Origin: Candidatus Gastranaerophilales bacterium
GTDB lineage: Bacteria; Cyanobacteriota; Vampirovibrionia; Gastranaerophilales; Gastranaerophilaceae
Reading direction: 5' to 3'
Assembly: GCA_017467305.1 (NCBI GenBank)
Contig: JAFTSM010000031.1
Coordinates: 1-54,669, forward strand
Length of the DNA: 54,669 nt
Every line of letters begins with the position of its first letter. Position 1 is the first letter of the stretch. This document shows positions 1,614 through 54,669 of the stretch, piece after piece. A program made the translations under genes and the position numbers. A model generated the notes under the pieces. It did no database searches and was not told the DNA's origin. It was given only the letters and a program-made list of their open reading frames with translations.

Positions 1614-2156
1614 ATGAAAAAGACTTTTTTAATTATTTTTATTTTGTTTAGTATAATTTGTAGTTACTATTTTGGTTATTATGTAGCTGCTTATAACCTA
1701 AATATAAAAATGACTAAAGAAAACAATATATTAAACGAAAAAATTATTACGTTAAATGATAAAAATTTAAAATTAAAAGAAATAATAAAAAAAAATAATA
1801 AAGAAGAAGAATATAAACATCCAATTGATATAAAACTTGAAAATTGTATAAATTCGACTCATCCATATTTGTATTCTAATTGTGCAGTAGAAAATGCAAA
1901 GGACTGGGATATAGAGATTAATAAACAATTAAAACAAATCAAAAATATAGTAAATAAGGATGATTATAATATTATTGATATAGCCCAAACAGACTGGAAG
2001 AAATCAGTAGATAGCGATGAGAAAGTAATCCACAAATTCGTATCCAGTCATCAAGGGGCTATAAATGAAACTCTTGCTTATTCATATATTGCTGATATAA
2101 AAAAACAGAGAGCTTTATTGTTGAATAATATTTATAATATTCATACAGAAGAATAA
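1614..2156 (+). CDS. membrane-anchored LprI/DUF1311-like protein, candidate muramidase inhibitor
   Basis: A 180-aa protein: one N-terminal membrane helix (residues 4-24), a charged coiled-coil stalk (33-65), then a domain with Cys78 and Cys90, AQTDW at 124-128 and a terminal KKQRALLL helix. This order (first cysteine, second cysteine about 12 residues on, a central AQxxW, a closing charged helix) fits DUF1311, the LprI N-terminal family, which includes lysozyme inhibitors. The divergence is high, so the family call is moderate. The single helix would place the domain outside the inner membrane. The stop lies 4 nt from the stop of the convergent GH108 muramidase, which suggests an inhibitor of that enzyme. 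Confidence 0.6.
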   Translation: MKKTFLIIFILFSIICSYYFGYYVAAYNLNIKMTKENNILNEKIITLNDKNLKLKEIIKKNNKEEEYKHPIDIKLENCINSTHPYLYSNCAVENAKDWDIEINKQLKQIKNIVNKDDYNIIDIAQTDWKKSVDSDEKVIHKFVSSHQGAINETLAYSYIADIKKQRALLLNNIYNIHTEE

Positions 2157-2160
2157 TATA

Positions 2161-3177
2161 CTATTCCAAACCTTCATACCTATTTAGGATTTTCTCCAAT
2201 TTATCAACTCTATTATTCCAACCATTTAAGTACTTTTCTTGTGAGGGTTTTTCAATAACTTTGTCAGTATAATGTTTTCTTCTATATTCCAATATTTTTC
2301 TCAAATCACCATTGGATTTTTTGTAATACTCTTTTGTTCTACCAACTCCGTGTAATACTGCTGTATCAAATAGTATTAATGATTTAATAGGGTCTTTTTC
2401 TTTGTTTAATCCTGATTTTACCCAGTAATCATTGTAATAAACTTTTATAGTTTCATTTTTTGTTAAATTTTTAACATCTTTTTTAGGTAATTTATGTCTT
2501 CTACAATAGTCATCATATGTATTTTGAGTAATTCCCATATTTGTAGGACCACCTTCATCATCTTCATCATTTACATATTTTCCTTCTGAACCAAAGACAA
2601 TATCTAAAACAGAAAAGAAAGTTTTATCATTTTCATTATTTGCTGAATTTTTAATATCAGAGTATTTCATATTTTTAATATCTGCCGCACCACCAGTTAA
2701 TTCACCATTTAACTTATCTGGTTTTTCTTTTTTTGCCTTAGGCAAATCGCTTTCTTGTAATTTTTCTTGTTTATTTTTCGGGTTGGTTTCTTTCTCTTTT
2801 TTGACATCTATTTTATCTAAATTTTCTTCAGTTCTTTCCTCCTTTTCTTCTTTATCCTTCATTGTTGGATATAGTAAATCTGCTCTTTTGCTATAATCTT
2901 TTTCTTCTTTTGGGCGGTTTATTTTTGTTTCTTTTTCCTCTTCTGTTGAGATATCATATTTTTTCTTTGTTTTATCATCTAACAAAGGTGATAATTCACC
3001 CTCTACTTCATCATCATCTTTTGTTTTTCCTAATCCTCTTATCTTTTCTTTTATTTTCTCTTTTTTATCAATTTTATAATCTTTATATTCTTCTTCATCT
3101 TCTTTCATACTTGTGAATAAAGTATTTGCTCTTTCTGTAAATTTGTCTTTTAAATCATATAATTTTCTTTTAATCAT
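2161..3177 (-). CDS. GH108-type muramidase with long charged N-terminal region
   Basis: A 338-aa protein. Residues 1-180 are highly charged and probably disordered, with a duplicated motif: RANTLFTSMKEDEEE at 16-30 and RADLLYPTMKDKEEK at 98-112. Residues 186-335 form a GH108 peptidoglycan muramidase domain: GSEGKYVNDEDDEGGPTNMG with the expected catalytic Glu198, then YYNDYW, FDTAVLHGVGR and a C-terminal LNGWNNRVDKL. There is no signal peptide, so export must use another route (holin, dedicated secretion system or lysis). The start ATG has an AAGGAG Shine-Dalgarno. It faces the LprI-like gene tail to tail. GH108 is mostly known from phages and from secretion-associated lysozymes. Confidence 0.82.
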   Translation of the reverse strand: MIKRKLYDLKDKFTERANTLFTSMKEDEEEYKDYKIDKKEKIKEKIRGLGKTKDDDEVEGELSPLLDDKTKKKYDISTEEEKETKINRPKEEKDYSKRADLLYPTMKDKEEKEERTEENLDKIDVKKEKETNPKNKQEKLQESDLPKAKKEKPDKLNGELTGGAADIKNMKYSDIKNSANNENDKTFFSVLDIVFGSEGKYVNDEDDEGGPTNMGITQNTYDDYCRRHKLPKKDVKNLTKNETIKVYYNDYWVKSGLNKEKDPIKSLILFDTAVLHGVGRTKEYYKKSNGDLRKILEYRRKHYTDKVIEKPSQEKYLNGWNNRVDKLEKILNRYEGLE

Positions 3178-3689: not shown

Positions 3690-3751
3690 TTAAAAGTGCT
3701 ATATATGAATCTATTTATCATCATGGGAGTTTTATTACTCCCTTTTTATTT
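3690..3751. repeat. 62-bp direct repeat, copy 2
   Basis: Perfect copy of 992-1053, here between the muramidase island and the 3' end of fusA. The most economical reading is insertion or duplication that placed the island between two copies of one terminator region. Confidence 0.95.
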
Positions 3752-11853: not shown

Positions 11854-11906
11854 AATTTTTACCTTAAACTTAAATATACTGATTTAAAATTCAAACATAT
11901 AAATTT

Positions 11907-11997
11907 TTGCGTTCTCATCGCACAATAAAACCTTCTAAATTTAGACATAAAAAAAGAGGTTTTGTAACCTCTTAAAAATGGTGCGTCTGGCGCGATT
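11907..11997. repeat. partial duplicate of the tRNA-Lys 3' end and terminator
   Basis: 88 of 91 positions match 12103-12193. The copy contains CCA, the acceptor strand and half the T arm of tRNA-Lys (to ATT at 11997) plus the downstream terminator hairpin. It is a broken tRNA end 196 bp from the intact one. The 105-bp spacer (11998-12102) is GC-richer and holds no recognisable gene. Confidence 0.9.
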
Positions 11998-12102
11998 GTC
12001 TTGGTCGTTCGCAATAAACGTGTCTTCAGGTGAAAACTCCTCGTTTCCACCTTACGCACTCTGCTCACTCCCGCTCGAACGTTAAAACAAGGTTACACCT
12101 TG

Positions 12103-12193
12103 TTGCGTTCTCATCGCGCAATAAACCCTTCTAAATTTAGACATAAAAAAAGAGGTTTTATAACCTCTTAAAAATGGTGCGTCTGGCGCGATT
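12103..12193. repeat. tRNA-Lys 3' end and terminator, intact copy of the duplication
   Basis: Covers the terminator hairpin GAGGTT-ATAAAA-type (12146-12169) followed on the minus strand by a T-run, and the 3' part of the functional tRNA. Confidence 0.9.
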
Positions 12194-12250
12194 CGAACGC
12201 GCGACCTATCCCTTAAAAGGGGAGTGCTCTACCTGCTGAGCTACAGACGC
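12175..12250 (-). tRNA. tRNA-Lys (UUU)
   Basis: The minus strand gives a 76-nt cloverleaf. The acceptor is GCGTCTG/CAGACGC with encoded ACCA end, D arm GCTC/GAGC, anticodon loop CTTTTAA with TTT at 34-36, and T arm GCGCG-TTCGAAT-CGCGC. The outer base pair of the anticodon stem (C27-U43) is mismatched. CCA is encoded, unlike in the tRNA-Gly of this window. Confidence 0.95.
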
Positions 12251-12567: not shown

Positions 12568-13863
12568 TTATTTAAATGGATTTTCCAAAATAATTGTTTG
12601 TTCTCTATCTGGACCAACGCTTACAATTTTAATCGGGATACCAACTAATTCTTGTAGTTTGTTTAAATATGCTTTTGCATTTTCTGGGAGTTCATCCATT
12701 GTTTTTGCTTTTGTGATATCAGTTTTCCAACCTTTATAAGTTTCATAAACTGGTTCTAAATATTTATGCATATAAATATTTGTTGGATAATCTTTATAAA
12801 TTTTACCGTCACGAATATCTTTATATGCTACACAAACTTTTAACTCATCAAAAGTATCAAATACATCAAGTTTTGTGATAGCCATTTCTGTTAAGCCACC
12901 AACTAAAACGCAGTATCTTGATAAAACTGCATCAAACCAGCCACAACGTCTTGGTCTACCAGTTGTTGTACCGAATTCGCCACCAATTGTTCTGATTTTT
13001 TCACCAGTTTCATCTAATAATTCAGTAACAAATGGACCTTCACCAACTCTTGTAATATATGCTTTTGTTACGCCAATTACATTTTCAATATGAGTTGGTC
13101 CAATACCACTACCAGTTGCTGCACCACCACCAATTGGGTTAGAGCTTGTAACATATGGATATGTACCATAATCAATATCCAGCATGATACCTTGAGCACC
13201 CTCAAATAGAATTTTCTTATCTTCTTTTAATGCAGATGATAATTTATCAACCCATTCATCACAAACATAAGGTTTGAAAATTTCAGCATATTTTTTACAA
13301 TATTCAAGCATTTCTTCTTTAGAATATGTTTTTGTGCCAAATACTTTCTCAAGCATTTTATTTTTTAAAGGAAGAATAGCGTCTAAACGTGCATTAAGTG
13401 CTTCTTCATCATATAAATCTTGAATTTTTAAACCATATCTACCAATTTTATCCGAATAAGTTGGTCCAATACCTTTTTTTGTTGTACCAATTTTATTTTT
13501 ACCTGAAGTATTTTCGCTAATACCGTCAATATCAATATGATATGGAAGAGTAATTGTCGCTAAAGGGCTAATCTTTAATGAAGAAAGATTTACACCACGC
13601 TCAATTAATTCTTGAGTTTCTTTTAAAAATGTTTCTGGGTGAATAACAGTACCTGCAGAAATAAAGCAAAACTTGTTATCATACAAAACACCAGACGGAA
13701 TCAAATGGAATTTATATGTTTCATTATTTGCAACAACAGTATGACCAGCATTACAACCACCTTGATAGCGAATAATTACATCAGCATATTCAGCCAAAAG
13801 GTCTGTAATTTTAGCCTTTCCTTCATCTCCCCATTGCGCGCCAACAACTACAGTATTTTTCAT
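12568..13863 (-). CDS. purA: adenylosuccinate synthetase
   Basis: A 431-aa enzyme that joins IMP and aspartate using GTP, the first committed step from IMP to AMP. The N-terminus VVGAQWGDEGKAKITDLL is the PurA signature. GCNAGHTVV (catalytic His), GTTKKGIGPTYSDKIGR and GRPRRCGWFDAV follow in the expected order. The start is ATG 13863, with AAGGA 7 nt upstream; an upstream in-frame TTG at 13911 overlaps the promoter and is rejected. It lies downstream of the 6S RNA candidate on the same strand, reminiscent of the cyanobacterial 6S-purK linkage. Confidence 0.97.
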   Translation of the reverse strand: MKNTVVVGAQWGDEGKAKITDLLAEYADVIIRYQGGCNAGHTVVANNETYKFHLIPSGVLYDNKFCFISAGTVIHPETFLKETQELIERGVNLSSLKISPLATITLPYHIDIDGISENTSGKNKIGTTKKGIGPTYSDKIGRYGLKIQDLYDEEALNARLDAILPLKNKMLEKVFGTKTYSKEEMLEYCKKYAEIFKPYVCDEWVDKLSSALKEDKKILFEGAQGIMLDIDYGTYPYVTSSNPIGGGAATGSGIGPTHIENVIGVTKAYITRVGEGPFVTELLDETGEKIRTIGGEFGTTTGRPRRCGWFDAVLSRYCVLVGGLTEMAITKLDVFDTFDELKVCVAYKDIRDGKIYKDYPTNIYMHKYLEPVYETYKGWKTDITKAKTMDELPENAKAYLNKLQELVGIPIKIVSVGPDREQTIILENPFK

Positions 13864-16432: not shown

Positions 16433-17368
16433 ATGAAAAAGAATGATTTTAAAGTAAAGTTTTGGGGTGTTAGAGGTTCTTACCCAGTAGTAAATAAAGA
16501 TTTTCTTAAATATGGTGGTAATACAGCCTGCGTTGAAGTAATTGCTGGTTCGCATAGAATTATTTTAGATGGTGGTACGGGCATAATTCCTCTTGGCGAC
16601 AAGATTTTTAAAGAACATATTTCTTCTGCTGATAATGTTTTTGATAGAAAGCCAATGAACGTTACGATGCTATTAAGCCACGTTCATCAAGACCATATTC
16701 AAGGTTTAAACTTCTTTAAACCGATGAATTCTTTAACAACACAATTCTCTTTATTTGGTTATAGTGGTTTTGATTCTACTTTAAATGAGACTTTATCCGA
16801 ATTGATTTTTGGCAAATCATTCCCAATAAACTTATACGATGTAACAGCAGATTACTCAATAACAGATATTTCTGAAACTGAAGTTATTATCTTAAAGAAA
16901 AATGAAAGACCTATTATAAAACGAGTTACAGAATTAGACGATATTACTCCAGAAAAAGATGAGGTTGTAATTTCTATTATGAAATCAAATTCACACCCAA
17001 ATTTTGGTGTAATGTGCTTTAAAATTGCATACAAAGATAAGTCTATAGTTTATGCAACAGATACTGAATGTTATATTGGTGGTTCTAAAAAATTAGAATT
17101 ATTTGCAAAGGATACAGATTTATTAATCCACGATAGCCAATACACAACAGAAGATTATTTATCAACAGTTGTTCCAAAACAAGGTTTTGGACACTCAACA
17201 TTTGATATGGCATATGATATTGCAAACGCTATAAACGCTAAAAAATTAGCTTTTTTCCATTTTGACCCTTCATACAATGATGCGAAGTTGACAATGATAG
17301 AAAATTTCTTTAAAAAGAAAAATGAAAACTGTTTTCTTGCAAAAGAAGGAATGGAAGTTTGTATTTAA
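16433..17368 (+). CDS. MBL-fold metal-dependent hydrolase
   Basis: A 311-aa protein starting MKKNDFKVKFWGVRGSYPV. The metal motif SHVHQDHIQG lies near residue 80, followed by YATDTE, HDSQYT and HFDPSYND. The WGVRGS start and these motifs fit the RNase Z/PhnP-like branch of MBL proteins, often annotated as cyclic-phosphodiesterase-like hydrolases. No signal peptide, so cytoplasmic. It lies in an operon with the phosphatase and overlaps the following TPR gene. Confidence 0.85.
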   Translation: MKKNDFKVKFWGVRGSYPVVNKDFLKYGGNTACVEVIAGSHRIILDGGTGIIPLGDKIFKEHISSADNVFDRKPMNVTMLLSHVHQDHIQGLNFFKPMNSLTTQFSLFGYSGFDSTLNETLSELIFGKSFPINLYDVTADYSITDISETEVIILKKNERPIIKRVTELDDITPEKDEVVISIMKSNSHPNFGVMCFKIAYKDKSIVYATDTECYIGGSKKLELFAKDTDLLIHDSQYTTEDYLSTVVPKQGFGHSTFDMAYDIANAINAKKLAFFHFDPSYNDAKLTMIENFFKKKNENCFLAKEGMEVCI

Positions 17369-17919
17369 AAAAACTTTTAATTATATTTTTAATACTTTTA
17401 ATTGCACCAGTCGGTTATTGCAAGCATAATAACCAATCTTGGAATATTAAAGCGGAGAACAATGCGTACAGACACAATAACAAAGGTTTAATGTACCTTG
17501 AAGATAAGTACTATTTTGGTGCTATAAAAGAATTTCAAATGGCTATTGATTTATTACCAAATAAACAAGCTACCGCAACTTTTTATACTAATCTTGGTAG
17601 AACTTATGAAAAAATAGGTTATCCAAGTTTGGCAAAAGATTGTTATGAAAAAGCAGTTAGTATTAATATCCTATGTTTTGATTATTATTTACAACTTGCA
17701 AAATGTTATAAAACTCTTGGTGTTGTAGATAAAAAACTTGAAGAATTTCAAAATAAAGAATATTCACCACTTAATAATGTTATGATTGGGCTTTTATATA
17801 TCCAAAAAGACCACAAGGCAACTGGAATAACAGTTTTAGACGATTTTTGTGATAAAGAACCAAATTTAATTATTACAGCTGGTGTTAGGAATTATTTAAA
17901 AGAAATTACAAAAGATTAA
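17359..17919 (+). CDS. exported TPR protein
   Basis: A 186-aa protein whose likely start is TTG 17359, overlapping the MBL gene by 10 bp; GGAAG lies just upstream and no ATG is suitably placed. A signal peptide (LLIIFLILLIAPVGYC) is followed by TPR-like helices (GLMYLEDKYYFGAIKEFQMA, NLGRTYEKIGYPSLAKDCYE and YLQLAKCYKTLG). TPRs bind other proteins; the partner is unknown. The C in GYCK could be a lipoprotein cysteine, although the lipobox is weak. Confidence 0.7.
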   Translation: MYLKKLLIIFLILLIAPVGYCKHNNQSWNIKAENNAYRHNNKGLMYLEDKYYFGAIKEFQMAIDLLPNKQATATFYTNLGRTYEKIGYPSLAKDCYEKAVSINILCFDYYLQLAKCYKTLGVVDKKLEEFQNKEYSPLNNVMIGLLYIQKDHKATGITVLDDFCDKEPNLIITAGVRNYLKEITKD

Positions 17920-18557
17920 AGCAAATTTAATCCGTGAGAATCTGTTCCACCTGTTTTGATTAAGTTGTTTTGTTCTGCAACTTTGATAACAGTTTCTCTA
18001 GAATGGAATTTCAACATTCCTCTAAGTCCATTATAAGGATAATATGTTTCTAATCCTTCTAATCCCATTTTAACTAATCCTTTTACAAATGTATCTAGGT
18101 TAAAACACCAACAGCAACAAGGATGTGCTAAAACAGCAACACCACCAGCATTGTTTATTTTTTCAATAACTTCTTTTGGATTTCTTAAATGGAATAATCT
18201 AAAAAAGTTGTGAGTTTTAGCATTGTGAGATGTTGCAAATAATGATTTTATTTCTTTATTATCAATATCTATTCCATAACCTAATATATGAATTAATACC
18301 CCTTTATAGAAACAATCAAATTCAACTGAAGGAATAACTATCTCTTCACGTAAAATATTCGTAGATAAATATGCGTCAATCGTATTATGGTCACAAATCG
18401 CTATATACTTTTTCCCTTGAGCTTTTGCTTGTTCAACAATTTCATAAGGTGACATTTTCCCATCTGATTCATTTGAATGAATATGTAAATCTACATTCTT
18501 AAAAAAATCTTCGGCTGTAAAAGATAATAATAAATTTTTTATTTCTTCTCTTCTCAT
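17916..18557 (-). CDS. PHP-domain phosphoesterase
   Basis: A 213-aa protein with NVDLHIHSNESDGKMSP, AICDHNTIDAY, VEFDC, AVLAHPCC and GGTDSHG, which together form the metal site of PHP domains (YciV/RnaAM-type nucleotidases and relatives). It is shorter than the usual 270-290 residues and ends right after TDSHG. It converges with the TPR gene with a 4-nt stop overlap. Probably a 3'-5' oligonucleotide or nucleotide phosphatase, but the substrate is not visible. Confidence 0.82.
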   Translation of the reverse strand: MRREEIKNLLLSFTAEDFFKNVDLHIHSNESDGKMSPYEIVEQAKAQGKKYIAICDHNTIDAYLSTNILREEIVIPSVEFDCFYKGVLIHILGYGIDIDNKEIKSLFATSHNAKTHNFFRLFHLRNPKEVIEKINNAGGVAVLAHPCCCWCFNLDTFVKGLVKMGLEGLETYYPYNGLRGMLKFHSRETVIKVAEQNNLIKTGGTDSHGLNLL

Positions 18558-18621
18558 GATAAACTTAACTCAATAACGTATATAATAAATATGCTAATAT
18601 AAAATTCAAAAAAGAGGAAGT

Positions 18622-19572
18622 ATGGCAAAGAAAAAATCAAACAAAATAATAAGTGCATTTTCAATATTTTTTTCAAGTGCAAAAACTTATTTTTTATACT
18701 TAGACCAATGTTTTAAATATCTATCTTTTCCAATATTCGGTCAATTAATAGGTTTAGCTTTAATTTTTACTTGTACATATTACTTCAATATAAATAAAGA
18801 AAATATAAGTAATATCTCTCCTTTTTTTGAAAATCATTTATACACTATTTTTTATATAGTTTTATTGCCATTTTTTATAATTTTTGTAAAAGCAATATAT
18901 GATTATGTACTAGCTTTTTGTGGATTAAATTTATTGTTTTACACTGTTTCAAACAAGAAAAAAGTAAAAGATATCAACTTTAAAGCGAATAAAGATGTTA
19001 TTCAAAGAAGATTGTTTCAATATATTCTTTTAATGTTACTTGTTTCTGTGCTATTAGTTGTTCCACCTTTAATTTTTGTAGCACCAATTATATGGGTATT
19101 TTTATGTTTATCCTTCCAAGTTTTTTCTTTCGAAAATGGAACATCTGCATTTAAAGCGATTGGAAGAAGTGTTGAACTAGTAAAAGGTAATTTTATTGCA
19201 ACCTCTATACTTTTGTTATTGTGTGGCTTTACTACATATTGGTTTTTACCAAACGTATTCTTATGGGCATGCGAAAAGATTTCTGTAACATCATTTTTAA
19301 TAAATAAAATTGAGCTTATTGCACAAATGCTCCCACTTAACCATTACAATGATATATTATCAATTGTAAACTATGAGATAGATGCATTAACAATAGCCAA
19401 AGCTTCGGCTGAAAGCGTTATTACATTTATTGTTATAGGTTTTTCTCTGCCTTTTAGATGCTGTTGTTTTACAGAATTATATAAACTTTATGATTCAGAA
19501 AAAATTAAAGAATTCTCAAAATCTACCGATGACATTATAGAAAGGGCAACGGGTAAGAAGAGAAAGAATTAA
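18622..19572 (+). CDS. polytopic membrane protein, unknown
   Basis: A 316-aa protein with about six hydrophobic helices (near 35-55, 70-95, 130-165, 195-215, 225-245 and 265-285). It contains SFENGTSAFKAIGRSVELVKGNF, split by helices, which resembles the linker seen in YciC/DUF975-type membrane proteins. No catalytic motif. It has a Shine-Dalgarno AGAGGAAG and is followed after 9 bp by a small zinc-ribbon gene. Confidence 0.7.
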   Translation: MAKKKSNKIISAFSIFFSSAKTYFLYLDQCFKYLSFPIFGQLIGLALIFTCTYYFNINKENISNISPFFENHLYTIFYIVLLPFFIIFVKAIYDYVLAFCGLNLLFYTVSNKKKVKDINFKANKDVIQRRLFQYILLMLLVSVLLVVPPLIFVAPIIWVFLCLSFQVFSFENGTSAFKAIGRSVELVKGNFIATSILLLLCGFTTYWFLPNVFLWACEKISVTSFLINKIELIAQMLPLNHYNDILSIVNYEIDALTIAKASAESVITFIVIGFSLPFRCCCFTELYKLYDSEKIKEFSKSTDDIIERATGKKRKN

Positions 19573-46243: not shown

Positions 46244-48011
46244 ACATTTCCTCTATTTTATCGAAGTATTTATTGTATATTTCATTTCTATTTAAAGCAA
46301 ATTTTTTTGTTAATAAACCATTTTCTTGTGTAAAGTGTTCATTTATTAAAGTAGCCTTTTTGATTTGATACAGCCATTTAAAATATTGTGAGCTACCTAA
46401 TATATTATTGATATCTATCAATATTTCTTCTTCTAAATTTTTATTTTTGTTTGTTTTTTTCCAATCTTCAATATAATTTTTATCAGGAACAATAAGTGCT
46501 GATAAATATGGTTTATCTTGACCCGCAACTATAATTTGCGAAACAAAATTTGAATTATTACAAAGAGCTTCTAAAGGTTCTGGATTAACATTTTCCCCAT
46601 TATTCAATACAATTACAGCCTTATATCTTCCTTTAAAAAATAGAAAATCATCCTCAGTTACATATCCCATATCTCCAGTAGATAAATAACCATTTTCGTC
46701 ATAAACATTAGCAGTTTCTATTTCATTTTCATAATATTTATCCATAGTCTGAGAACCTTTAACCTTTATTAAGCCTGTTGTATTAAAAGGTAGTTCTTCA
46801 AGAGTTTCTGGATTACATATAATTACTGACAATAAAGGATTAACTTTACCAACAGAACCTAATTTTCTATATTTATCATTAATATATGTAATTGTCGCAG
46901 CTTCTGTTGAACCATATGTTTGCATCAAACAAGCACCAATAACTGAATAGAATATTTCAACACTCATATCAACAAATGCACCAAATGCTACTATTTTGGC
47001 TTTTGGGATAAACTGTATTTCATTTATAATTTCGTTAAATATTAACTTAATACCAATAAAATTAATCAAAGATAATATTGGAATTTTGATAAAATCAAAG
47101 ATTGAGTGTTTGTTATTATCTCTTTTTTCTATATATTTTTTAGATAAATCAAAAAAGATTTTATGTAAGTTTTTAAAATAAAAATTCTTTTTATTTAAGG
47201 CTTTATAGTAATCTTCCATGTGCATTATTAATAGTTTGGGTACACATAATATATGCAATGGTTTATATTTTGCTATATCACGTTTGTAATTTATATAATC
47301 TGAATAAATCATATAGCAACCACTTGTTAAAATCATCCAATCACAAAATTTAGGACAAATATGAGAACTTGATAATAAGGATAAACAACCACCTTCTTTT
47401 GCAAAGAAATTAGAGTTTGTATGACTCAAAAACGCATTAATTAATGTCTTGTGAAAATATACGACTCCTTTGGGTTTGCCCATTGTTCCAGAAGAGAAAA
47501 AGATTGTTGCAATCATATCTTCTGATATTGGTTGTAACGAAATCTCTTGATCACTAATTTGTTTCATATGTTCTGATAAATTATATAGAGTTATATTTTC
47601 ATTATTATAATTTGAAATATCTTCATCGTTACCAATATAGAATATAGTAACATTATGATTTTTACATTGTTTGATTAAACTTAAATTATCCGTAAAAATA
47701 ACTTGTGAATTAGTCTTGTTTTTTATAATTTCAACATCTTGAATATTATATGAATGATCACAACATATAGTTATATTCCCACTCAATAGTGCTGCAATTT
47801 CTATAATATGGCACATTGGTTGAGGTTTTAAATACAATATTATTTTTTCTTGAGGTTGTTGTATTGTTGCTTGTAATATTTTAACTATCTTAAATGTTTG
47901 ATTTTTAAAATCTGAAAAAGTGACTTTTTCTCCTGTTTTATTTTCAATAAAAGCAGTCTTATCTCCATACTTTTCAAAAGCTTCAAGAAATATATCAGTT
48001 ATTAGTTTCAC
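46236..48011 (-). CDS. AMP-forming acyl-ACP/CoA synthetase
   Basis: A 591-aa adenylation enzyme starting at GTG 48011, with GGGAG upstream and a 17-nt overlap with the SGNH gene. P-loop FFSSGTMGKPKG (171-182), CLMQTYGSTEA and YLSTGDMGYV are intact; the terminal catalytic lysine could lie in GLLTKKFALNR. The insert between about 245 and 330 (long LSKKYIEKRDNN region) resembles long-chain fatty acyl synthetases rather than DltA. It would load a carboxylic acid on the operon's ACP. Confidence 0.88.
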   Translation of the reverse strand: MKLITDIFLEAFEKYGDKTAFIENKTGEKVTFSDFKNQTFKIVKILQATIQQPQEKIILYLKPQPMCHIIEIAALLSGNITICCDHSYNIQDVEIIKNKTNSQVIFTDNLSLIKQCKNHNVTIFYIGNDEDISNYNNENITLYNLSEHMKQISDQEISLQPISEDMIATIFFSSGTMGKPKGVVYFHKTLINAFLSHTNSNFFAKEGGCLSLLSSSHICPKFCDWMILTSGCYMIYSDYINYKRDIAKYKPLHILCVPKLLIMHMEDYYKALNKKNFYFKNLHKIFFDLSKKYIEKRDNNKHSIFDFIKIPILSLINFIGIKLIFNEIINEIQFIPKAKIVAFGAFVDMSVEIFYSVIGACLMQTYGSTEAATITYINDKYRKLGSVGKVNPLLSVIICNPETLEELPFNTTGLIKVKGSQTMDKYYENEIETANVYDENGYLSTGDMGYVTEDDFLFFKGRYKAVIVLNNGENVNPEPLEALCNNSNFVSQIIVAGQDKPYLSALIVPDKNYIEDWKKTNKNKNLEEEILIDINNILGSSQYFKWLYQIKKATLINEHFTQENGLLTKKFALNRNEIYNKYFDKIEEMYE

Positions 48012-49155
48012 TATTAATTAATTCTCCCGTTTCTACATCAATATTGTATCTTCTTTTTATTTCATACCTATAATATATATATTCTTCATCCCAAGAATTA
48101 TACTTACTATCATTTCTTTTATCTTTTAGTCCGTATTCTGTTACAAGTAAATTTGATAAGTAATCAGTAGCTTTATATGCTCCAAAGAAATTAAGATGAT
48201 ATTCGTCTAAAAAGTCATTATTTGAATCTATATTTAATCCTTCACAATCTCTCATATAAAAAGAATCTAAGCCGTATTTTTTTGCTGTATGAAATATGTA
48301 TTGTATTCTATCAAAATATTCTTCGTACTTTAAGGAAGGTGTGGCTATTATTATAACTTTAGTGTTTTTAAGTGTTGAAGCATAGAAAAATAAATCTTCG
48401 ATATCATTCACATATTTCAATATTTCAAGTTCTTCTTTTGTGTTTTTTCTTTCCGCTCTAACAAAATCAATTAAGTCTTTAATATATAAGTTTGGATTTC
48501 TTTGTTTTTTATATCCACCAATTTGTGATGCTTCCCATTGTTTATCTTTATATGTATATTTTCTTTTATAGAACTCTTCAAAATCAATTACAGCACCTTT
48601 ATGTGGATTAGAATTAGATAAATAGGAATTTCTTTGTATATTTTTCCATCTGCTATGAAAACGAATAATAGGGAAATAATATTCCAGAATTTCTATATTA
48701 TTAAAACTCATTTCTTTTTTTAGTGCACGTATCATTTTAATTTTATTTATAGATGGTTTTACAATAGAAATAGGTCTTAATGCAACTACATTGTCTTTAG
48801 AAGGAGGACGATTTTGTAGTGGTTTTATACCATCGGCAACAATAAAAAGAACTTTTGGTGTTTGATATTTCATAACTTCTTTAGCCGCATAGATATATTG
48901 TTCTGTCACCATTCCAGAAATCGAATACATAGCGCTAGTTATACCATATTTATTATAGGCAATAGGAGGTAGAAAAACTGTATAAGCTGAAGAAGGTCCG
49001 ATAAAAACAGCATCAATTTGTTGTTGTTCTTTATAAAATGCTCTAATCCCAGCATTTTCAGCAGTTAGTACTACTGTTTTCTCTGATAGTACAGTTGCAA
49101 CTACAATTATTGTAAAAATAAAAAATATATAACTTGCCCAAACTTTTAATTTCAT
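47995..49155 (-). CDS. SGNH-like protein, DltD/AlgX-type, copy 1
   Basis: About 386 aa from ATG 49155, with AGGTG upstream. One N-terminal helix, then DAVFIGPSSAYTVF with the SGNH serine, and a terminal DEYHLNFFGAYKA with the Asp-His pair. It is paralogous to the gene at 50778 (IRAFYKE, GITxAxY, EQYI and HLNFFGAYKATDYLSNL shared). In Dlt and alginate acetylation systems such proteins sit beside an MBOAT and finish acyl transfer outside the membrane. Confidence 0.82.
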   Translation of the reverse strand: MKLKVWASYIFFIFTIIVVATVLSEKTVVLTAENAGIRAFYKEQQQIDAVFIGPSSAYTVFLPPIAYNKYGITSAMYSISGMVTEQYIYAAKEVMKYQTPKVLFIVADGIKPLQNRPPSKDNVVALRPISIVKPSINKIKMIRALKKEMSFNNIEILEYYFPIIRFHSRWKNIQRNSYLSNSNPHKGAVIDFEEFYKRKYTYKDKQWEASQIGGYKKQRNPNLYIKDLIDFVRAERKNTKEELEILKYVNDIEDLFFYASTLKNTKVIIIATPSLKYEEYFDRIQYIFHTAKKYGLDSFYMRDCEGLNIDSNNDFLDEYHLNFFGAYKATDYLSNLLVTEYGLKDKRNDSKYNSWDEEYIYYRYEIKRRYNIDVETGELINSETNN

Positions 49156-49164
49156 ACTATGCAC

Positions 49165-50676
49165 CTAAAACTTAAAGTACATAAAATCTTTTGGATCGTA
49201 CTCTGGGCCATATAACCCCAATAATAAAATTACAATTTGGAAGAATATAATTGCACACCATCTCACAATTAATGGACAACGTATGTATATGCCTCTTAAA
49301 TCCACTTTAAATTCTTTTAATAAATCTACTATGATAATTAATGTAATTCCAATTATTATTACCCCAAAATCATATTTGTCGACTCCAATTGTAGTAATTG
49401 TATTTGCAGAATTAAAATCAAATAAAACTTTTTCAAACATATTAAAACAGTCTGAAACAGTTTCGGCTCTAAAGAAAAACCACATCAAATACATTGCAGT
49501 AAGTACATATATTCGTTGTATTATCTTAGCCCAAAGAGCATTTTTTAATGATTTTATTTTTAATACTTTATCAGTAATAAGTTTAAAAATATCCTCTAAT
49601 ATCATAAAAATACAAGGACTCATTCCCATAGCAATAAAATACTTGAAACTTATGCCGTGCCTAAATGAAGAAATTGACCAAATAACAAAATAAGCAATAA
49701 ATAAAGGTATATGTTTTGCCAACCATTTATGCTTGATTCCTTCTAGGGCAGATTTGATTTTCATCATTATTTTACTTCTTATTACTGGATAAAAAATGTA
49801 ATCTTTTAAAAACGAATAAAAAGTAATATGCCATCTGTTCCAAAAATCGTGAACACTTTTTGAGAAAAAAGGATTATTAAAATTTTCTGGCATTTTAATA
49901 CCAAAACACTCAGAGATACCAAGAACTATATCCATAGCTGCAGAAAATTCTATATAGAACTGTAACCCAAAGAGAATCATTGCAAATAATATATACATTC
50001 CTGAATATTCTTGATAACTTCCTAAAATAGTATTTATAGGAAGTAGAATTCTATCAGCAATAACTATCTTTTTTGTTATCCCCCATAAAATTCTAAAAAC
50101 ACCAAATTTTATACAATCAAAGCTAATTTCTTTTGTAGAAAATAATTGTTCTTTCATTTCTTTATGTCTGACAATTGGTCCCATAAGTATCTGTGGAAAA
50201 TATGTAGAAAATAAAGAATGTTTTAAAAAATTAGTTTCAACAGTTGTTACTTTTCTATACACATCTGTTATATACGCAATTAAAATTAAAGAATAGTATG
50301 AAACCCCCAACGTAACAATCGCATCACCAGCGATAGTTTCAGTTGTAGCAAAAAATTCAGACACATTTGTACTTAATTGGCTCAAGGCACCAGAAAACTT
50401 TAATAATACAAATTCTGCAATGATTAATAAAATAGAGGAACCTAATATTAACTGTTTTACACTATTATTTTCAACTTTATTTATAAAATTAGAACCAAAG
50501 AAAGAAACTAAAATGGCAAAAAACATATACCAAAATGAAATAATTCCAGCAGCAATTAATATAAACCCAATACTAGCAAGTAAAAGAATCATCCACCTAT
50601 ATTTTGCACCTACTGTATGATATACCAAAAAGGCTATTGCAAAAACAATTAAAAGTTTTAACCAAACAATTGACAT
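49165..50676 (-). CDS. MBOAT membrane acyltransferase (DltB/AlgI-like)
   Basis: A 503-aa protein with about ten helices. SAAMDIVLGISECFGIKMP, FFSKSVHDFWNRWHITF and WSISSFRHGISFKYF (active histidine) are MBOAT markers. DltB/AlgI proteins pass an acyl group across the membrane from a carrier to a polysaccharide or teichoic acid. Its partner SGNH gene follows 9 bp downstream. A collapsed second copy is at 51957-52118. Confidence 0.93.
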   Translation of the reverse strand: MSIVWLKLLIVFAIAFLVYHTVGAKYRWMILLLASIGFILIAAGIISFWYMFFAILVSFFGSNFINKVENNSVKQLILGSSILLIIAEFVLLKFSGALSQLSTNVSEFFATTETIAGDAIVTLGVSYYSLILIAYITDVYRKVTTVETNFLKHSLFSTYFPQILMGPIVRHKEMKEQLFSTKEISFDCIKFGVFRILWGITKKIVIADRILLPINTILGSYQEYSGMYILFAMILFGLQFYIEFSAAMDIVLGISECFGIKMPENFNNPFFSKSVHDFWNRWHITFYSFLKDYIFYPVIRSKIMMKIKSALEGIKHKWLAKHIPLFIAYFVIWSISSFRHGISFKYFIAMGMSPCIFMILEDIFKLITDKVLKIKSLKNALWAKIIQRIYVLTAMYLMWFFFRAETVSDCFNMFEKVLFDFNSANTITTIGVDKYDFGVIIIGITLIIIVDLLKEFKVDLRGIYIRCPLIVRWCAIIFFQIVILLLGLYGPEYDPKDFMYFKF

Positions 50677-50777
50677 TTTATATTATTTTCCCAAACTACA
50701 ATTAATCCGAATATATTAATTATATATGGGAATAAGGAAAAAGTAAAAATTATAATATATAATGAGCTAATTTTAAA

Positions 50778-51947
50778 TCATAATTTCTTTAGATAGTCAA
50801 AGTCTATGTCAACATTATATCGACTTCTTATAAAATACCTATAAAATTCGTATTCTTCATCCCAAGATTTATACTTGCTATCATTTCTTTTATCTTTTAG
50901 TCCATATTTATTTATAAGTAAATTCGATAAGTAATCAGTTGCTTTATATGCACCAAAAAAATTAAGATGATGTTCATCAACAAATTCATTATTTAAATCT
51001 ATATTTAATTCTTTACAATTTCCCATATAAAATGACGTTAAGCCATACTTTTTCGCAGTATGAAATATATATTGTATTCTTTCAAAATTTCTATCATATA
51101 TTAATGATGGTGTTTCTATTATTACAACTTTTGTATTTTTAAGTGTTGATACATAGAAAAACAAATCTTCAATAGCTTTTACATATTGTAATATTGCAAT
51201 TTCTTTCTTTCGAATTTCTTTATCTGTTGAATTTTCTTGTCCTCTAACATTGTAAATCAAATCTCTAATGAATAAATTCGGATTTCTCTTTTTTCTATAT
51301 TCATCAATTTGTGGGATTTTTCGTTGCATACTCTCATATGGATTAATATTTGAGTTTTTTTCATAAAATTCTTTAAAATAGATTAACGCACCTTTATGTG
51401 GATTAGAATCAAATAAAACAGAGTTTTCTCTTAGAGTTTTCCATCTGCTATGAAAACGAAAAATAGGGAAATAATATTCAAGAATTTCTCTATTATCAAA
51501 GTTTAATTCTTTTTTGAAAGCTTGCAAGATTTTTATTTTATTTATAGATGGTTTTAGTATAGGAAAAGATTTTAATGCAGATTTCAAGTCAGGATGTTTA
51601 CGTTGTAGTGGAGACATGTTATCAATGGCAATAAGAAGAACTTTAGGTGTTTGATATTCCATAACTTCCTTAACAACATGGATATATTGTTCTGTCACCA
51701 TACCAGGTAGTGCATATACCGCACCAGTTATACCGTATTTATGATATGCGATAAGTGGAAGGAATGTTGTAAAAGTTGATGAAGGACCAATTATAACTAC
51801 ATCAATTTGATTTTGAGGTTCTTTATAAAATGCCCTAATTCCAGCATTTTCACTACTAGGTTCTGTTACTATTACAGATAGTACTGTTGCAACCACGATT
51901 GTTATAAAAAGAAAAAATATAGAACTTATAAAAACTTTCCGCCTCAT
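50778..51947 (-). CDS. SGNH-like protein, copy 2
   Basis: A 389-aa paralogue of the gene at 47995 with the same markers: one membrane helix, DVVIIGPSSTFTTF, and DEHHLNFFGAYKA. AGAGG precedes ATG by 6 nt. It lies directly behind the MBOAT remnant, as copy 1 lies behind the intact MBOAT, so the pair arose by tandem duplication. It might act with the remaining MBOAT or on a different acyl acceptor. Confidence 0.82.
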   Translation of the reverse strand: MRRKVFISSIFFLFITIVVATVLSVIVTEPSSENAGIRAFYKEPQNQIDVVIIGPSSTFTTFLPLIAYHKYGITGAVYALPGMVTEQYIHVVKEVMEYQTPKVLLIAIDNMSPLQRKHPDLKSALKSFPILKPSINKIKILQAFKKELNFDNREILEYYFPIFRFHSRWKTLRENSVLFDSNPHKGALIYFKEFYEKNSNINPYESMQRKIPQIDEYRKKRNPNLFIRDLIYNVRGQENSTDKEIRKKEIAILQYVKAIEDLFFYVSTLKNTKVVIIETPSLIYDRNFERIQYIFHTAKKYGLTSFYMGNCKELNIDLNNEFVDEHHLNFFGAYKATDYLSNLLINKYGLKDKRNDSKYKSWDEEYEFYRYFIRSRYNVDIDFDYLKKL

Positions 51948-51956
51948 AAAAAACCT

Positions 51957-52118
51957 CTAAAATTAAAGTATATTGTATCTTCTTTCTTGTCTTCTACGCC
52001 ATACAACATTAATGCTAGTAGATAAAAGAACCAACCACATGGATTTTACATTTGTTGTGTAACTTAATAAAAAGGCTATTGCAAAGACAATCAAAAGCTT
52101 TAACAAAATAATTGACAT
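51957..52118 (-). pseudogene. collapsed second MBOAT gene
   Basis: From ATG 52118 the frame reads SIILLKLLIVFAIAFLL and onward, matching the first 33 or so residues of the intact MBOAT (SIVWLKLLIVFAIAFLV). After about 100 bp a different frame gives LYGVEDKKEDTIYF, matching the MBOAT C-terminus LYGPEYDPKDFMYF. More than 1.3 kb between has been deleted, and a further base is missing just before the old stop. Confidence 0.88.
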
Positions 52119-52358: not shown

Positions 52359-52360
52359 AT

Positions 52361-52499
52361 TTAATGGGGCAGGTGATGGGTCACAGTTAGAACCCGAAAC
52401 CAATATTTATTTGGATATTTTAAAATCATTAAACCACTTGTCAGATATGATACTAAGTATAAAAACTGTTTTGAAATCAAATATGAAATAAAGTATAAT
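52361..52499. repeat. 139-bp repeat, copy 1
   Basis: Matches 54360-54498 without gaps, with 5 differences. It starts TTAATGGGGCAGGTGATGGG and ends with the TATAAT of the downstream gene. The first 40 bases resemble a minus-strand tRNA acceptor and T arm with an oversized loop. The rest keeps an open frame ending at the TAA near 52489. Confidence 0.93.
52494..52499 (+). promoter_or_regulatory. -10 box giving a leaderless transcript
   Basis: TATAAT ends 6 nt before ATG 52506. Confidence 0.65.
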
Positions 52500-52505
52500 C
52501 AGACT

Positions 52506-53024
52506 ATGAAAAAATTACTCATAATACTATTTTTAATATTAATTACTCCTATTTTTTCTATTGCTGAAGAAGAAAATATTTTAGGTTACAAAAAATCAGA
52601 AATAATTTCTTTAGATGATTACTTATATGATAATTCAAAACGAAAAAGACATCTAAAGATAAATTCTAATGGTGATGTTACTTATAAGGGGAAAGTAATA
52701 ATAACTCCAACTGGCAAAACCATTAATGATGAAAGTAGTGGTGATTCTTATTTATGGATGAAAATTTATTTTGTTGCAAATGGTTCAAAACCACGCAAAG
52801 GTTGTGATGAACGAGATACTATAAATAATGGAATATATGGCTTAGGCTGTTATATAGATACCCCAGAAGAAGCATATAAAACACAAATAGAAAGAACTAT
52901 TAAAGAAGAATTTCCAAAAACAAAAAAGCTTATTGATGAAGAATTTGCAAATGCAAAGAAAACATATAAAAAATATCGTAAAAATAAAAACAAAAAAGAA
53001 AATGTTGAGGAATATATTTTTTAA
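52506..53024 (+). CDS. exported protein of a muramidase cassette
   Basis: A 172-aa protein with a signal peptide (LLIILFLILITPIFSIA). The mature part contains KINSNGDVTYKGKVIITPTG, two cysteines (GCDERD and GLGCYI) and a lysine-rich tail. It is not an LprI type and I recognise no family. Promoter geometry and position, facing a muramidase through an 80-aa partner, match the LprI-like gene at 1614, so a muramidase-inhibitor role is inferred from context only. Confidence 0.65.
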   Translation: MKKLLIILFLILITPIFSIAEEENILGYKKSEIISLDDYLYDNSKRKRHLKINSNGDVTYKGKVIITPTGKTINDESSGDSYLWMKIYFVANGSKPRKGCDERDTINNGIYGLGCYIDTPEEAYKTQIERTIKEEFPKTKKLIDEEFANAKKTYKKYRKNKNKKENVEEYIF

Positions 53025-53266
53025 TGCAAGGTTATCAACGAGGTATAGAAGCCTATGAAACAATATTTGTATCAAAACTAATAGATGTTACAGCAAATTT
53101 CAATGACATTGAAAACAAAATTCCTGCTACCGATTTTGCAGGAACTTTGTTTAACTTTTTATATCCATATTTTAAGGGAAATAACATAGATTATAGAAAA
53201 TACGACGAATTAACGAAATATGCTTCAATTAAAATTAAAGAAATTGATTCAATGTTAGAAAGATAA
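53024..53266 (+). CDS. small helical protein coupled to the exported gene
   Basis: An 80-aa protein without a signal peptide; its ATG overlaps the previous stop as TAATG. Predicted helical, with TDFAGTLFNFLYPYF in the middle. Unknown family. Its stop lies 8 nt from the stop of the convergent GH24 gene. It may be a second immunity or chaperone-like component of the cassette. Confidence 0.6.
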   Translation: MQGYQRGIEAYETIFVSKLIDVTANFNDIENKIPATDFAGTLFNFLYPYFKGNNIDYRKYDELTKYASIKIKEIDSMLER

Positions 53267-53274
53267 GATATTAT

Positions 53275-54096
53275 TTAGAATTCATCGGGTGTTAAAAATA
53301 ATTCTTTTTCTTTTTTTCTTCTATTAACCAACCCTCTCAATACTTCAATTTTTCCGGTTTGCCTATTTCTTTGCCCCACATATTTATCAAAACTATCTGC
53401 AGCAGCCTTGTAATCACCTTTTTGTAAATTTTTAAATATACTAGAATTTCTCAAACCATTTGGACCTAAGTTAAATGAAAAACTTGCAAGTGCTATCTTT
53501 TGATTACTTGTTAAAGGCACTTCAATTTCTTTTAGTGGTTTAATGTGAACTTCAAAATCTTTTCTATATAATTCTTCGGCTTTCTCTTTTGTAATTTTCA
53601 TTCCAGAAGTAATTGGCTTGCCATCAACATTTCCCGTATGTCCATAACCAATTGTCCATACATCATTTTGAGTTGGCAAATATGCTTCTGCCACAAATTT
53701 TTCTTCACCTTGAATAAATTTTCTAGCCTTTGCTATTTCATCATCAGAAAAATAATAATTATTGCTTTTAATTAATTCTATTTCTTTTGTTTTTTCTTGT
53801 ATTTTATCATTTAAATTTTCTAGTTCATTATTTTTAAGCCTATTAAGAGTATCTATATTTCTGCTATCTCCATAATATTTCTTCATATATTCTTCATCAC
53901 TGCCATATAATATGTTGACTCTTTGTTTCATTTTTTCTTCATCATCGAGTTTTGGTGTTGATGTTGTAGAAACAGAACTACTACTTGAACTATGTGCAGC
54001 GCCACAAGTTCTAGTATAACCAGAGACTTGTACTCCATTGCCTCGAGTATAACCACTTACACTATAACTCCCTATACAACCATTATCTTTTGTCAT
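53275..54096 (-). CDS. GH24-type (T4/P1-like) lysozyme with repeat-rich N-terminus
   Basis: About 273 aa from ATG 54096 (an in-frame GTG at 54105 is also possible; residue numbers here count from the GTG). Residues 15-33 hold a tandem VSGYTR-type repeat, followed by a serine run and a helix with QRVNILYGSDEE that recalls the RADLLYPTMK repeat of the GH108 protein. The GH24 domain spans 125-270: catalytic Glu135, TIGYGHTG at 151-158, SFSFNLGPNGLRNSSI and GLVNRRKKEKELFL. No signal peptide. It cleaves the MurNAc-GlcNAc bond of peptidoglycan. Confidence 0.88.
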   Translation of the reverse strand: MTKDNGCIGSYSVSGYTRGNGVQVSGYTRTCGAAHSSSSSSVSTTSTPKLDDEEKMKQRVNILYGSDEEYMKKYYGDSRNIDTLNRLKNNELENLNDKIQEKTKEIELIKSNNYYFSDDEIAKARKFIQGEEKFVAEAYLPTQNDVWTIGYGHTGNVDGKPITSGMKITKEKAEELYRKDFEVHIKPLKEIEVPLTSNQKIALASFSFNLGPNGLRNSSIFKNLQKGDYKAAADSFDKYVGQRNRQTGKIEVLRGLVNRRKKEKELFLTPDEF

Positions 54097-54130
54097 TTTC
54101 TCCACACCTTTCCCTAGTTAAATACATTAC

Positions 54131-54168
54131 AAATACCCCTAAATCATTTGCAAATTTAGGTATTTTTT
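54131..54168. terminator. hairpin upstream of the GH24 gene
   Basis: AAATACC...TAAAT pairs with ATTTAGGTATTT, followed by T on the plus strand. A second 12-nt inverted repeat lies at about 54200-54229. Apart from these and the terminator at 54336, the 54106-54359 gap holds no gene. Confidence 0.4.
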
Positions 54169-54359
54169 ATTTAATTAATAGCCTTAAAACACTTATTAAG
54201 ATTTATATTTTCAATATAAATCTTTTTGAAAACTTTTCAACCCTATTTCCTTGTTTATAGTGTTTTTCACAAGTTCAAAACAATGATAAATACATGAATA
54301 CATCCTTTTGTTACATTTCATGAACATACTAAAAAAGACCTCTTTCGAGGTCTAAATTT

Positions 54360-54498
54360 TTAATGGGGCGGGTGATGGGGCACAGTTAGAACCCGAAACC
54401 AATATTTATTTGGATATTTTAAAATCATTAAACCACTTGTCAGATATGATACTAAGTATAAAAACTGTTTTGAAAACAGATATAAAATAAAGTATAAT
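54360..54498. repeat. 139-bp repeat, copy 2
   Basis: Copy of 52361-52499 (134 of 139 positions identical). It delivers the promoter for the gene at 54505. Confidence 0.93.
54493..54498 (+). promoter_or_regulatory. -10 box giving a leaderless transcript
   Basis: TATAAT ends 6 nt before ATG 54505. Confidence 0.65.
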
Positions 54499-54504
54499 TT
54501 AGGT

Positions 54505-54669
54505 ATGAAAAAAAATATTATTGTTATTCTTTTTATAATTACATCTTTGATTTTTTCTTTTCTTTTTGGTTTTTTCACAAAAGATATTCTTTTTAAATCT
54601 AAAACGAATAATCAAAATCGAACAAATAACGTTATAGATAAAAATGAAGCAATTTGTTTGGAACAAGCA
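54505..54669 (+). CDS. membrane-anchored LprI-like protein, N-terminal part
   Basis: Fifty-five codons to the window edge: a membrane helix (IIVILFIITSLIFSFLFGFF), a polar stalk, then DKNEAICLEQA, which resembles the first-cysteine region of DUF1311/LprI proteins and the plan of the 180-aa protein at 1614. The rest is outside the window. By analogy a convergent muramidase gene should follow. Confidence 0.45.
   Translation, partial: MKKNIIVILFIITSLIFSFLFGFFTKDILFKSKTNNQNRTNNVIDKNEAICLEQA

Follow-up and report, generated by a model that had tools for sequence, protein, structure and literature searches.

What does a lysozyme without a visible signal peptide do when its gene lies tail to tail with the gene for an exported protein, and why does one contig hold this kind of arrangement more than once? 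We address this question for a 54,669-base contig of a Candidatus Gastranaerophilales genome, and we use "the window" for the whole of that stretch (contig C73 of a 75-contig, 1.85 Mb assembly that is 89% complete). This assembly is G000, its Candidatus Gastranaerophilales genus is called the host genus, and all genomes compared here are metagenome-assembled. In our assessment it is rather probable that the cassettes in the window belong to a polymorphic effector-immunity system whose scaffold-mimic tags load toxins into domesticated podovirus particles for delivery to the periplasm of rivals. A cassette, so understood, would be an effector gene (a variable leader, a scaffold-type motif and an exchangeable enzyme domain) that faces a gene for an exported inhibitor with a leaderless promoter. 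Two such cassettes comprise the following features, in which ORF stands for open reading frame and aa for amino acids.

1614..2156, plus strand: cassette 1 partner, an exported LprI-domain protein with a leaderless promoter (TATAAT 6 nt upstream of ATG)
2161..3177, minus strand: cassette 1 effector, with a long leader carrying two motifs (RANTLFTSM, RADLLYPTM), then TGGAAD and a GH108 domain
2860..2886, minus strand: scaffold-type motif RADLLYPTM, residues 98-106 of the GH108 effector
52506..53266, plus strand: exported partner (putative immunity) gene of cassette 2, split into 172-aa and 80-aa ORFs (from ORF calls and homology in genome G002)
52506-53024, plus strand: 172-aa ORF with a hydrophobic N-terminus
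53024-53266, plus strand: 80-aa ORF
53275..54105, minus strand: cassette 2 effector, 276 aa, with an SGYTR-type leader (residues 1-~60), the motif and a GH24 lysozyme domain
53308..53703, minus strand: GH24 catalytic domain with E134/E135, D148 and T151 (Pfam match)
53902..53922, minus strand: scaffold-type motif RVNILYG, residues 62-68 of the GH24 effector

The minus-strand protein of cassette 2 matches GH24 (PF00959) at 6.7e-29 over residues 135-266, and the residues listed presumably form its catalytic triad, as in T4 lysozyme. Its N-terminus, MEKMTKDNGC, is hydrophilic, and reading by eye revealed no signal peptide. Partner and lysozyme stop codons lie 8 nt apart, tail to tail. The two genes of cassette 1 likewise face each other across a 4-nt gap, and the plus-strand protein reaches 26.9 bits against LprI (PF07007), above the gathering cut-off of 22. 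An earlier, sequence-only reading had described an exported protein plus an 80-aa partner converging on a GH24 lysozyme that lacks a signal peptide; the layout and the gap stand, and the separation into two genes does not, since both ORFs align to a single 254-aa protein in G002, a genome of the same genus (84% and 75% identity). The window gene is therefore interrupted at a run of T, or the assembly is wrong there. Over partner residues 30-118 there is a match (66%) to a 129-aa protein opposite a GH24 gene at another place in G002; residues 124-172 and the 80-aa ORF match 159-aa and 161-aa partners that face M23 peptidases in G033 and G016 (43-63% and 44-56%). In our reading the gene at 52506-53266 probably joins a GH24 partner to an M23 partner, and its interruption at the T run may be a sequencing error. 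It gave no LprI (PF07007) match in the Pfam scan.

Leaders like those in the window recur ahead of other enzyme domains. The leader of the window GH24 (residues 1-67 to 1-72) is 73-79% identical to G002 leaders that end in an M23 peptidase or in an unknown domain. Four ORFs of an array on G002 contig C5 (150,791 bases) carry it: in two it is joined to the unknown domain, in a third to M23 (9.8e-25), and the fourth breaks off where the leader ends; an additional GH24 copy elsewhere on C5 has an in-frame stop. Within G000, a second GH108 effector (contig C26, L160:1-711) faces a 137-aa gene, and its leader is 71% identical to that of cassette 1 over 169 aa, with 90% DNA identity over 401 nt, while the two enzyme domains share only about 40% identity.

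We assembled by hand a catalogue of 36 effectors with a readable N-terminus from 19 genomes; two of the effectors lose their C-terminal end at contig ends and one is a fragment. It comprises 10 GH24, 7 of an unknown "DVYDFN" type, 7 papain-like, 5 GH108, 5 M23, 1 GNAT-like and 1 DUF3990-like proteins, the last two names being weak ones; the single papain-like effector scanned matches PF15644 (Gln_amidase) at 3.7e-6. Their leaders are of several types, including SGYTR and HPRD..GKF. A colicin M identity for the DVYDFN warhead was considered and dropped: Pfam returned nothing, a profile search of solved structures gave 0 hits, and the nickname "ColM-like" reflects a remembered motif only.

We tabulated effector neighbours in 39 rows, 2 of them without a neighbour. 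Among GH24, GH108, M23 and papain-like effectors the downstream gene is convergent in 29 of 29 rows, with the last sense codons 2-34 nt apart in 26 and 137-363 nt apart in 3. The unknown and DUF3990-like types have a neighbour in 7 rows. In 5 this is a codirectional membrane-type gene, in one it is the effector's own second fragment, and in one a fragment converges with a membrane-type gene. The single GNAT-like effector has only a doubtful small ORF beside it. Exchangeable effector domains thus appear behind a shared N-terminus, as in polymorphic toxins, and the adjacent putative immunity genes look specific to the warhead, as judged by neighbourhood and by family; the partners of GH24, GH108 and M23 fall into one family, defined as a loose single-linkage cluster. 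The sequence-only reading had proposed a polymorphic effector-immunity island, and the shared leaders with exchanged domains (in G002 and on C26), together with the partner facing its effector in all 29 rows, support that proposal.

Most partners begin with MKK or similar followed by a hydrophobic stretch, the G013 partner as called being an exception. As most partners look exported or membrane-bound, the effector targets probably lie outside the cytoplasm. A TATAAT box stands 5-9 nt upstream of the partner start in 25/33 cases, as against 10/162 control ORFs, and Shine-Dalgarno (SD)-like sites precede 2/33 partners as against 66/162 controls; with the promoter at the start codon and so few SD-like sites, the partner genes look leaderless and probably constitutive. 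Effector starts have an SD-like site (by regular expression) in 13 of 16 cases, the window GH24 not being among the 13. AlphaFold modelled two partners poorly (mean pLDDT 50 and 56).

The proposed link between these effectors and a phage particle, which the sequence-only reading had not noted, is a short motif. The effector motif, R-x-x-[IL]-[LF]-[YF]-[PG], is also the C-terminus of the scaffold-position protein in an epsilon15-type gene cluster of the host genus, a protein that we take to be the scaffold from gene order and general phage biology. In 14 of 14 genus proteins, that of G000 included, it ends in [SN]REDIL[FY]P[TN]M, followed by no more than one residue; effectors carry REDIL[YF]PTM or RADLLYPTM-like forms, often twice. 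Across 42 genomes, our genus-level sample for motif, terminase and VipB counts, a DNA pattern for the motif found 97 matches as against 8 for the reversed control. We read 83 of these: 17 scaffold C-termini, 54 effector-type leaders or ORFs and 12 very short ORFs. A stricter DNA pattern occurs in 16 of 288 family genomes, all from this genus (16/20 sampled genus genomes, 0/268 others).

This ending is shared by viral relatives. In 12 chosen public phages the homologous or position-equivalent protein mostly ends alike, for example in AEVLYGK or RAEIMYPDLK. We then picked 80 viral loci by capsid similarity, 74 of them with a readable upstream ORF, and applied a regular expression that was written after the genus and phage ends had been read: the motif falls within the last 22 residues in 70/74 viral scaffold-position proteins as against 43/692 other ORFs, and a stricter expression gave 63/74 as against 14/692. 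The RVNILYG of the window resembles viral scaffold ends such as DRVSILYG.

In the catalogue the motif is present in 32/36 effectors as against 14/320 control ORFs, a comparison that is partly circular because many entries were found through the motif. A fairer test starts from GH24 similarity alone. We examined 25 of 43 such matches, 4 of which had no intact catalytic ORF, and set the length cut after the values had been seen: the motif is present in 13 of 14 ORFs with at least 89 residues before the TIG motif, and in 0 of 7 with at most 61. The one long ORF that lacks it reads RADILYD, and 3 of the 7 short ORFs are closely related to the window GH24 and have no readable leader.

The particle genes themselves form a cluster kept across the genus. 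In twelve genomes, as far as the stretches reach, the common order is a small gene, terminase small subunit, terminase large subunit, a variable slot, a small gene, portal, the scaffold-position gene and capsid, followed by tail tube A and B, internal virion proteins, fibre and lysis genes. The portal matches PF12236 (1.8e-116) and the capsid NCBIfam MCP_gp7_epsi_15 (3.8e-89), remaining genes being assigned by PHROG; the capsid protein is about 45% identical to that of phiV10-like phages, and the cluster often encodes a short GH108 endolysin. In G033 effectors adjoin the terminase large subunit. Effectors follow the terminase in 7/14 genomes (G033, G012, G027, G020, G035, G032 and G016; the contigs of G012 and G035 stop short of the portal), and they also lie beside it in G019, G010 and G004. 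The portal-to-tail genes of G000 are on contig C52.

Terminase matches occur in 40/42 genus genomes. Because the G013 match is distant (34%), we count the core gene in 39/42, nearly always as a single copy and 84-92% identical to the G033 query. The terminase-side flank is constant in 14/15 stretches that reach it (12/13 of the main locus set, the exception being G033, plus L171 and L174), and the other-side flank in 9/10 (7 main-set loci, L159 of G000 and L221, the exception being L223 of G022); the flanking genes were named rlmH and lysC by eye. Protein identity averages 0.89 in terminase and 0.90 in capsid, compared with 0.89 in lysC and 0.74 in rlmH. The median dN/dS of 0.050 for terminase (43/91 pairs usable), 0.066 for capsid (78/78) and 0.077 for portal (67/78) indicates purifying selection on these three genes; the internal virion proteins, at 0.34-0.48, change quickly. 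Sampling across the order found the capsid gene in 10/10 genus genomes and 19/182 others. A PHROGs scan of the 20 genes of one cluster (L117) recognised no integrase. As would be expected of a domesticated phage, structural genes thus appear conserved and largely vertically inherited at a mostly constant host site, with flank exceptions in G033 and G022. G035 and G027 also hold related prophage-like clusters, in which the gene region upstream of the terminase is larger and no leader-bearing effector lies downstream of it.

How might such a motif act? In phage P22 the scaffold attaches to the inner coat surface through its C-terminus, and the binding is lost when 11 residues are removed (PMC9965877); foreign proteins joined to a truncated P22 scaffold become packaged in vivo (PMC9962691). 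In epsilon15-type scaffolds the conserved terminal motif may play a similar coat-binding role: it would be the capsid-binding tail of the scaffold, copied into effectors. When the host produces particles, effectors would co-assemble with scaffold within the procapsid; after release, the particles would dock on a related cell, and the effectors, ejected into its periplasm, would there cut peptidoglycan or strike other envelope targets. Siblings would survive because the inhibitors sit in their periplasm or inner membrane. Loading, delivery, killing and protection are steps that we infer, ejection into the periplasm from podovirus biology and the likely location of the partners. The chances seem to us about even that the genus has domesticated an epsilon15-type podovirus in this way as a contact-free weapon, with a scaffold-copied peptide that loads envelope toxins, ejection into the periplasm of competitors, and exported antidotes encoded tail to tail with the toxins.

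Several observations weigh against this interpretation. The motif is internal in effectors and terminal in scaffolds, and PHROGs labels the scaffold-position family "protease". The window GH24 variant, RVNILYG, escapes both DNA patterns, and 4/36 catalogued effectors miss the regular expression, the near variants seen by eye being KVELLYPTM, IADLFYPTM, LLDLFYPTM and REDILYKDT. In a second genus the exact PAQILYG pattern gave one match in each of 26/28 genomes, and the 14 that were read are the scaffold gene itself, with no effector; this outcome lends no support and counts against a general rule of scaffold-motif effectors. The composite partner stands opposite GH24 in the window and opposite M23 in G002, so that cognate pairing is inferential, and the window copy is interrupted. 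The G002 ORF opposite the homologue of the LprI-type gene at the right edge of the window is a 70-residue leader-only relic, with no intact muramidase. The G000 assembly has no terminase match, as C52 begins inside the variable slot, and the window cassettes lie apart from the particle genes. G033 has no rlmH within the 20 kb read past its cluster, and G022 is rearranged, with no portal upstream of the scaffold gene and no lysC within 15 kb. Rank correlations between identities of cluster and flanking genes are mixed, from -0.08 to 0.83 (for terminase, 0.81 with rlmH, 0.51 with lysC and -0.02 with a mostly truncated oxidoreductase).

These observations leave room for other explanations. The cassettes could be an effector-immunity system that uses another secretion route, or bacteriocin-like free release at lysis of the particle-producing cells, with the motif a leftover from the phage genes that donated the enzyme domains. 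GH24, GH108 and M23 are common phage lysis domains, the cluster itself often has the short GH108 endolysin, and the window cassettes and the G002 array are both away from particle genes. Yet the motif stems from the scaffold-position protein rather than from endolysins, the short GH24 ORFs have it in none of 7 cases, and it is kept, often twice, ahead of unrelated enzyme domains; moreover the type VI secretion system (T6SS), the only secretion system searched for, was represented by its sheath protein VipB (PF05943) in 0/42 genus genomes. We regard this explanation as unlikely. The endolysin-type domains also fit ordinary prophage lysis genes with anti-lysozyme morons, in which the enzymes are endolysins and the LprI-type exports delay lysis or block foreign endolysins, and the closest NCBIfam model for GH24 is the BaGTA endolysin, albeit at 91 bits against a cut-off of 315. 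Such genes would be expected to encode a short enzyme in a lysis cassette, with no leader and no cognate inhibitor, a description that the window-type effectors do not fit. The long conserved leaders, the papain-like and unknown warheads with partners of their own, and the three short GH24 genes of related hosts (L206, L208 and L209) that have neither leader nor partner-like neighbour speak against morons, which we rate as the least probable account.

The cluster might instead be a normal temperate phage common in the genus, its cassettes being phage-encoded weapons of the MuF type and the host having domesticated nothing. Prophage-like relatives with larger pre-terminase regions in the same hosts (L211-L215), six IMG/VR contigs with a capsid protein 84-92% identical, and the differing flanks in G033 and G022 are in its favour. 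Against it are the nearly always single copy at a mostly constant site, the failure to recognise an integrase among the conserved cluster genes scanned, and identities and dN/dS values like those of core genes; we hold a normal phage to be improbable, scarcely less so than morons. Pfam scans of 9 effectors gave no match up to E 0.5 to the MuF domain (PF04233).

A domesticated particle loaded through scaffold mimicry would have both precedents and peculiarities. The MuF polymorphic toxins of temperate phages likewise carry variable toxin domains on a phage-head-associated N-terminus, and Jamet et al. (2017; PMC5576092) propose that the viral head delivers them; here, unlike there, the tag resembles a scaffold C-terminus, most partners look exported or membrane-bound, and the cluster is nearly fixed in the host genus. 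Cargo loading by P22 scaffold fusions (PMC9962691, PMC9965877) likewise uses the capsid-binding end of a scaffold to bring a foreign protein into the procapsid, as proposed here; those fusions are engineered, whereas the present motif is natural, internal and ahead of enzyme domains. Phage structural genes of podovirus type that a host keeps together with terminase and lysis genes are also seen among gene transfer agents, for instance in the podovirus-like FpGTA of Faecalibacterium (PMC12946183). The present cluster belongs to a different phylum from FpGTA and has effector-immunity cassettes in the slot after the terminase. The T6SS peptidoglycan-hydrolase effector of Salmonella Dublin with its LprI immunity protein (PMC8867033) similarly sets a predicted peptidoglycan hydrolase beside an exported PF07007 protein, in a bicistronic rather than convergent arrangement and with a T6SS, whose sheath is absent from the sampled genus (0/42). 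With epsilon15/BPP-1-type podoviruses the cluster shares the order portal, scaffold-position gene, capsid, along with the capsid similarity given above; it differs in having no recognised early or integration genes and in the effectors inserted after the terminase. We found no such system in the titles and abstract beginnings of the open-access papers that our searches listed, those from searches naming Gastranaerophilales included.

At the right end of the window, the partner gene of cassette 2 and the first part of a cassette 3 partner each follow a copy of one repeat.

52360..52499, plus strand: repeat copy 1, with an antisense tRNA-His 3'-end relic at 52364-52380 (1 mismatch in 17), TTGAAA at 52471-52476 and TATAAT at 52494-52499
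54359..54498, plus strand: repeat copy 2, with an exact antisense 17-nt tRNA-His 3'-end relic at 54363-54379, TTGAAA at 54470-54475 and TATAAT at 54493-54498
54505..54669, plus strand: 5' part of an LprI-type partner gene, 55 codons, ending at the contig end

The two copies are 96% identical across 140 nt, and a 53-nt piece of the repeat found two matches in 0 of 100 shuffles. Both copies contain TTGAAA-N17-TATAAT 6 nt upstream of ATG, in keeping with their earlier description as a promoter repeat; that they are a promoter alone we rejected, in view of the 17-nt tRNA-His 3'-end relic at the start of the repeat, which is also exact in two copies on L052 of G002. The edge gene had been called LprI-like, which its G002 homologue confirms: this 157-aa protein is identical at 54/55 positions and matches PF07007 (3.7e-8, 34.1 bits, gathering cut-off 22). 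A candidate small protein across the repeat (GAGDG...LEPETNIYLDILK) was not accepted as coding, since substitutions between the copies show no clear third-codon-position bias.

The G000 assembly holds exactly two copies of the repeat. At E 0.01 a search found matches in 29/59 genomes, and beyond G000 only G002, with seven matches, stood far above short weak ones. Four of the seven extend into the promoter and lie directly upstream of three LprI-type genes and the 254-aa gene. A fifth is partial (L052, about 12903-12994), without an immunity gene immediately after, and two span only the first 40-42 nt. As far as this check on repeat copies and their neighbours could be run, the four copies that precede partner genes favour an effector-immunity system. 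The G002 array begins at an intact tRNA-His (L052:6837-6912), and, judging by the relics, cassette arrays may grow there as islands; no recombinase was identified for such islands. The same kind of tRNA 3'-end relic occurs elsewhere in the window, where a 94-nt repeat (11904-11997 and 12100-12193, 96% identical) duplicates the 3' end of a tRNA-Lys (12175-12250) and its terminator region. At cassette 1 the 139-nt repeat was looked for and not found; an exact 62-nt direct repeat on either side of that cassette (992-1053 and 3690-3751) is a possible insertion mark.

Other stretches hold further features. In the variable slot of G016 (L128:10037-13100) lie two genes of 321 aa each, along with three small ORFs (65-72 aa) that belong to a single family; the small ORF that was read is Cys-rich. 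In another genus, a terminase-portal stretch (L220) encodes a protein judged lipase-like by eye, which has a CxxC..HPNCKC leader and lies opposite a membrane-type protein (17755-19110 and 17125-17739); perhaps this is the same slot with a different kind of tag. The portal-scaffold interval of the second genus has a convergent pair, a 306-aa protein weakly like virion protein F3 and an exported protein of ~141 aa (L218:9484-10819), with equivalents in L220, in L224 and in 13/14 loci read (not L226). In the window at 47995-52118, a 389-aa gene occurs twice on the minus strand (47995-49164 and 50778-51947, ~80% identical), flanking an MBOAT gene (49165-50676); a second MBOAT is only a 51-aa remnant (51963-52118), and the region resembles a duplicated O-acetylation cluster.

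It is an open question what benefit gene transfer agents bring (PMC11841831). If the interpretation that we favour is true, the cassettes would give the uncultured gut lineage Gastranaerophilales a weapon system and would supply a selective reason for the genus-wide retention of a phage-like particle. The motif would then be a short, portable and natural cargo-loading peptide for podovirus capsids, and protein cargo in phage-derived particles becomes a question that can be tested.

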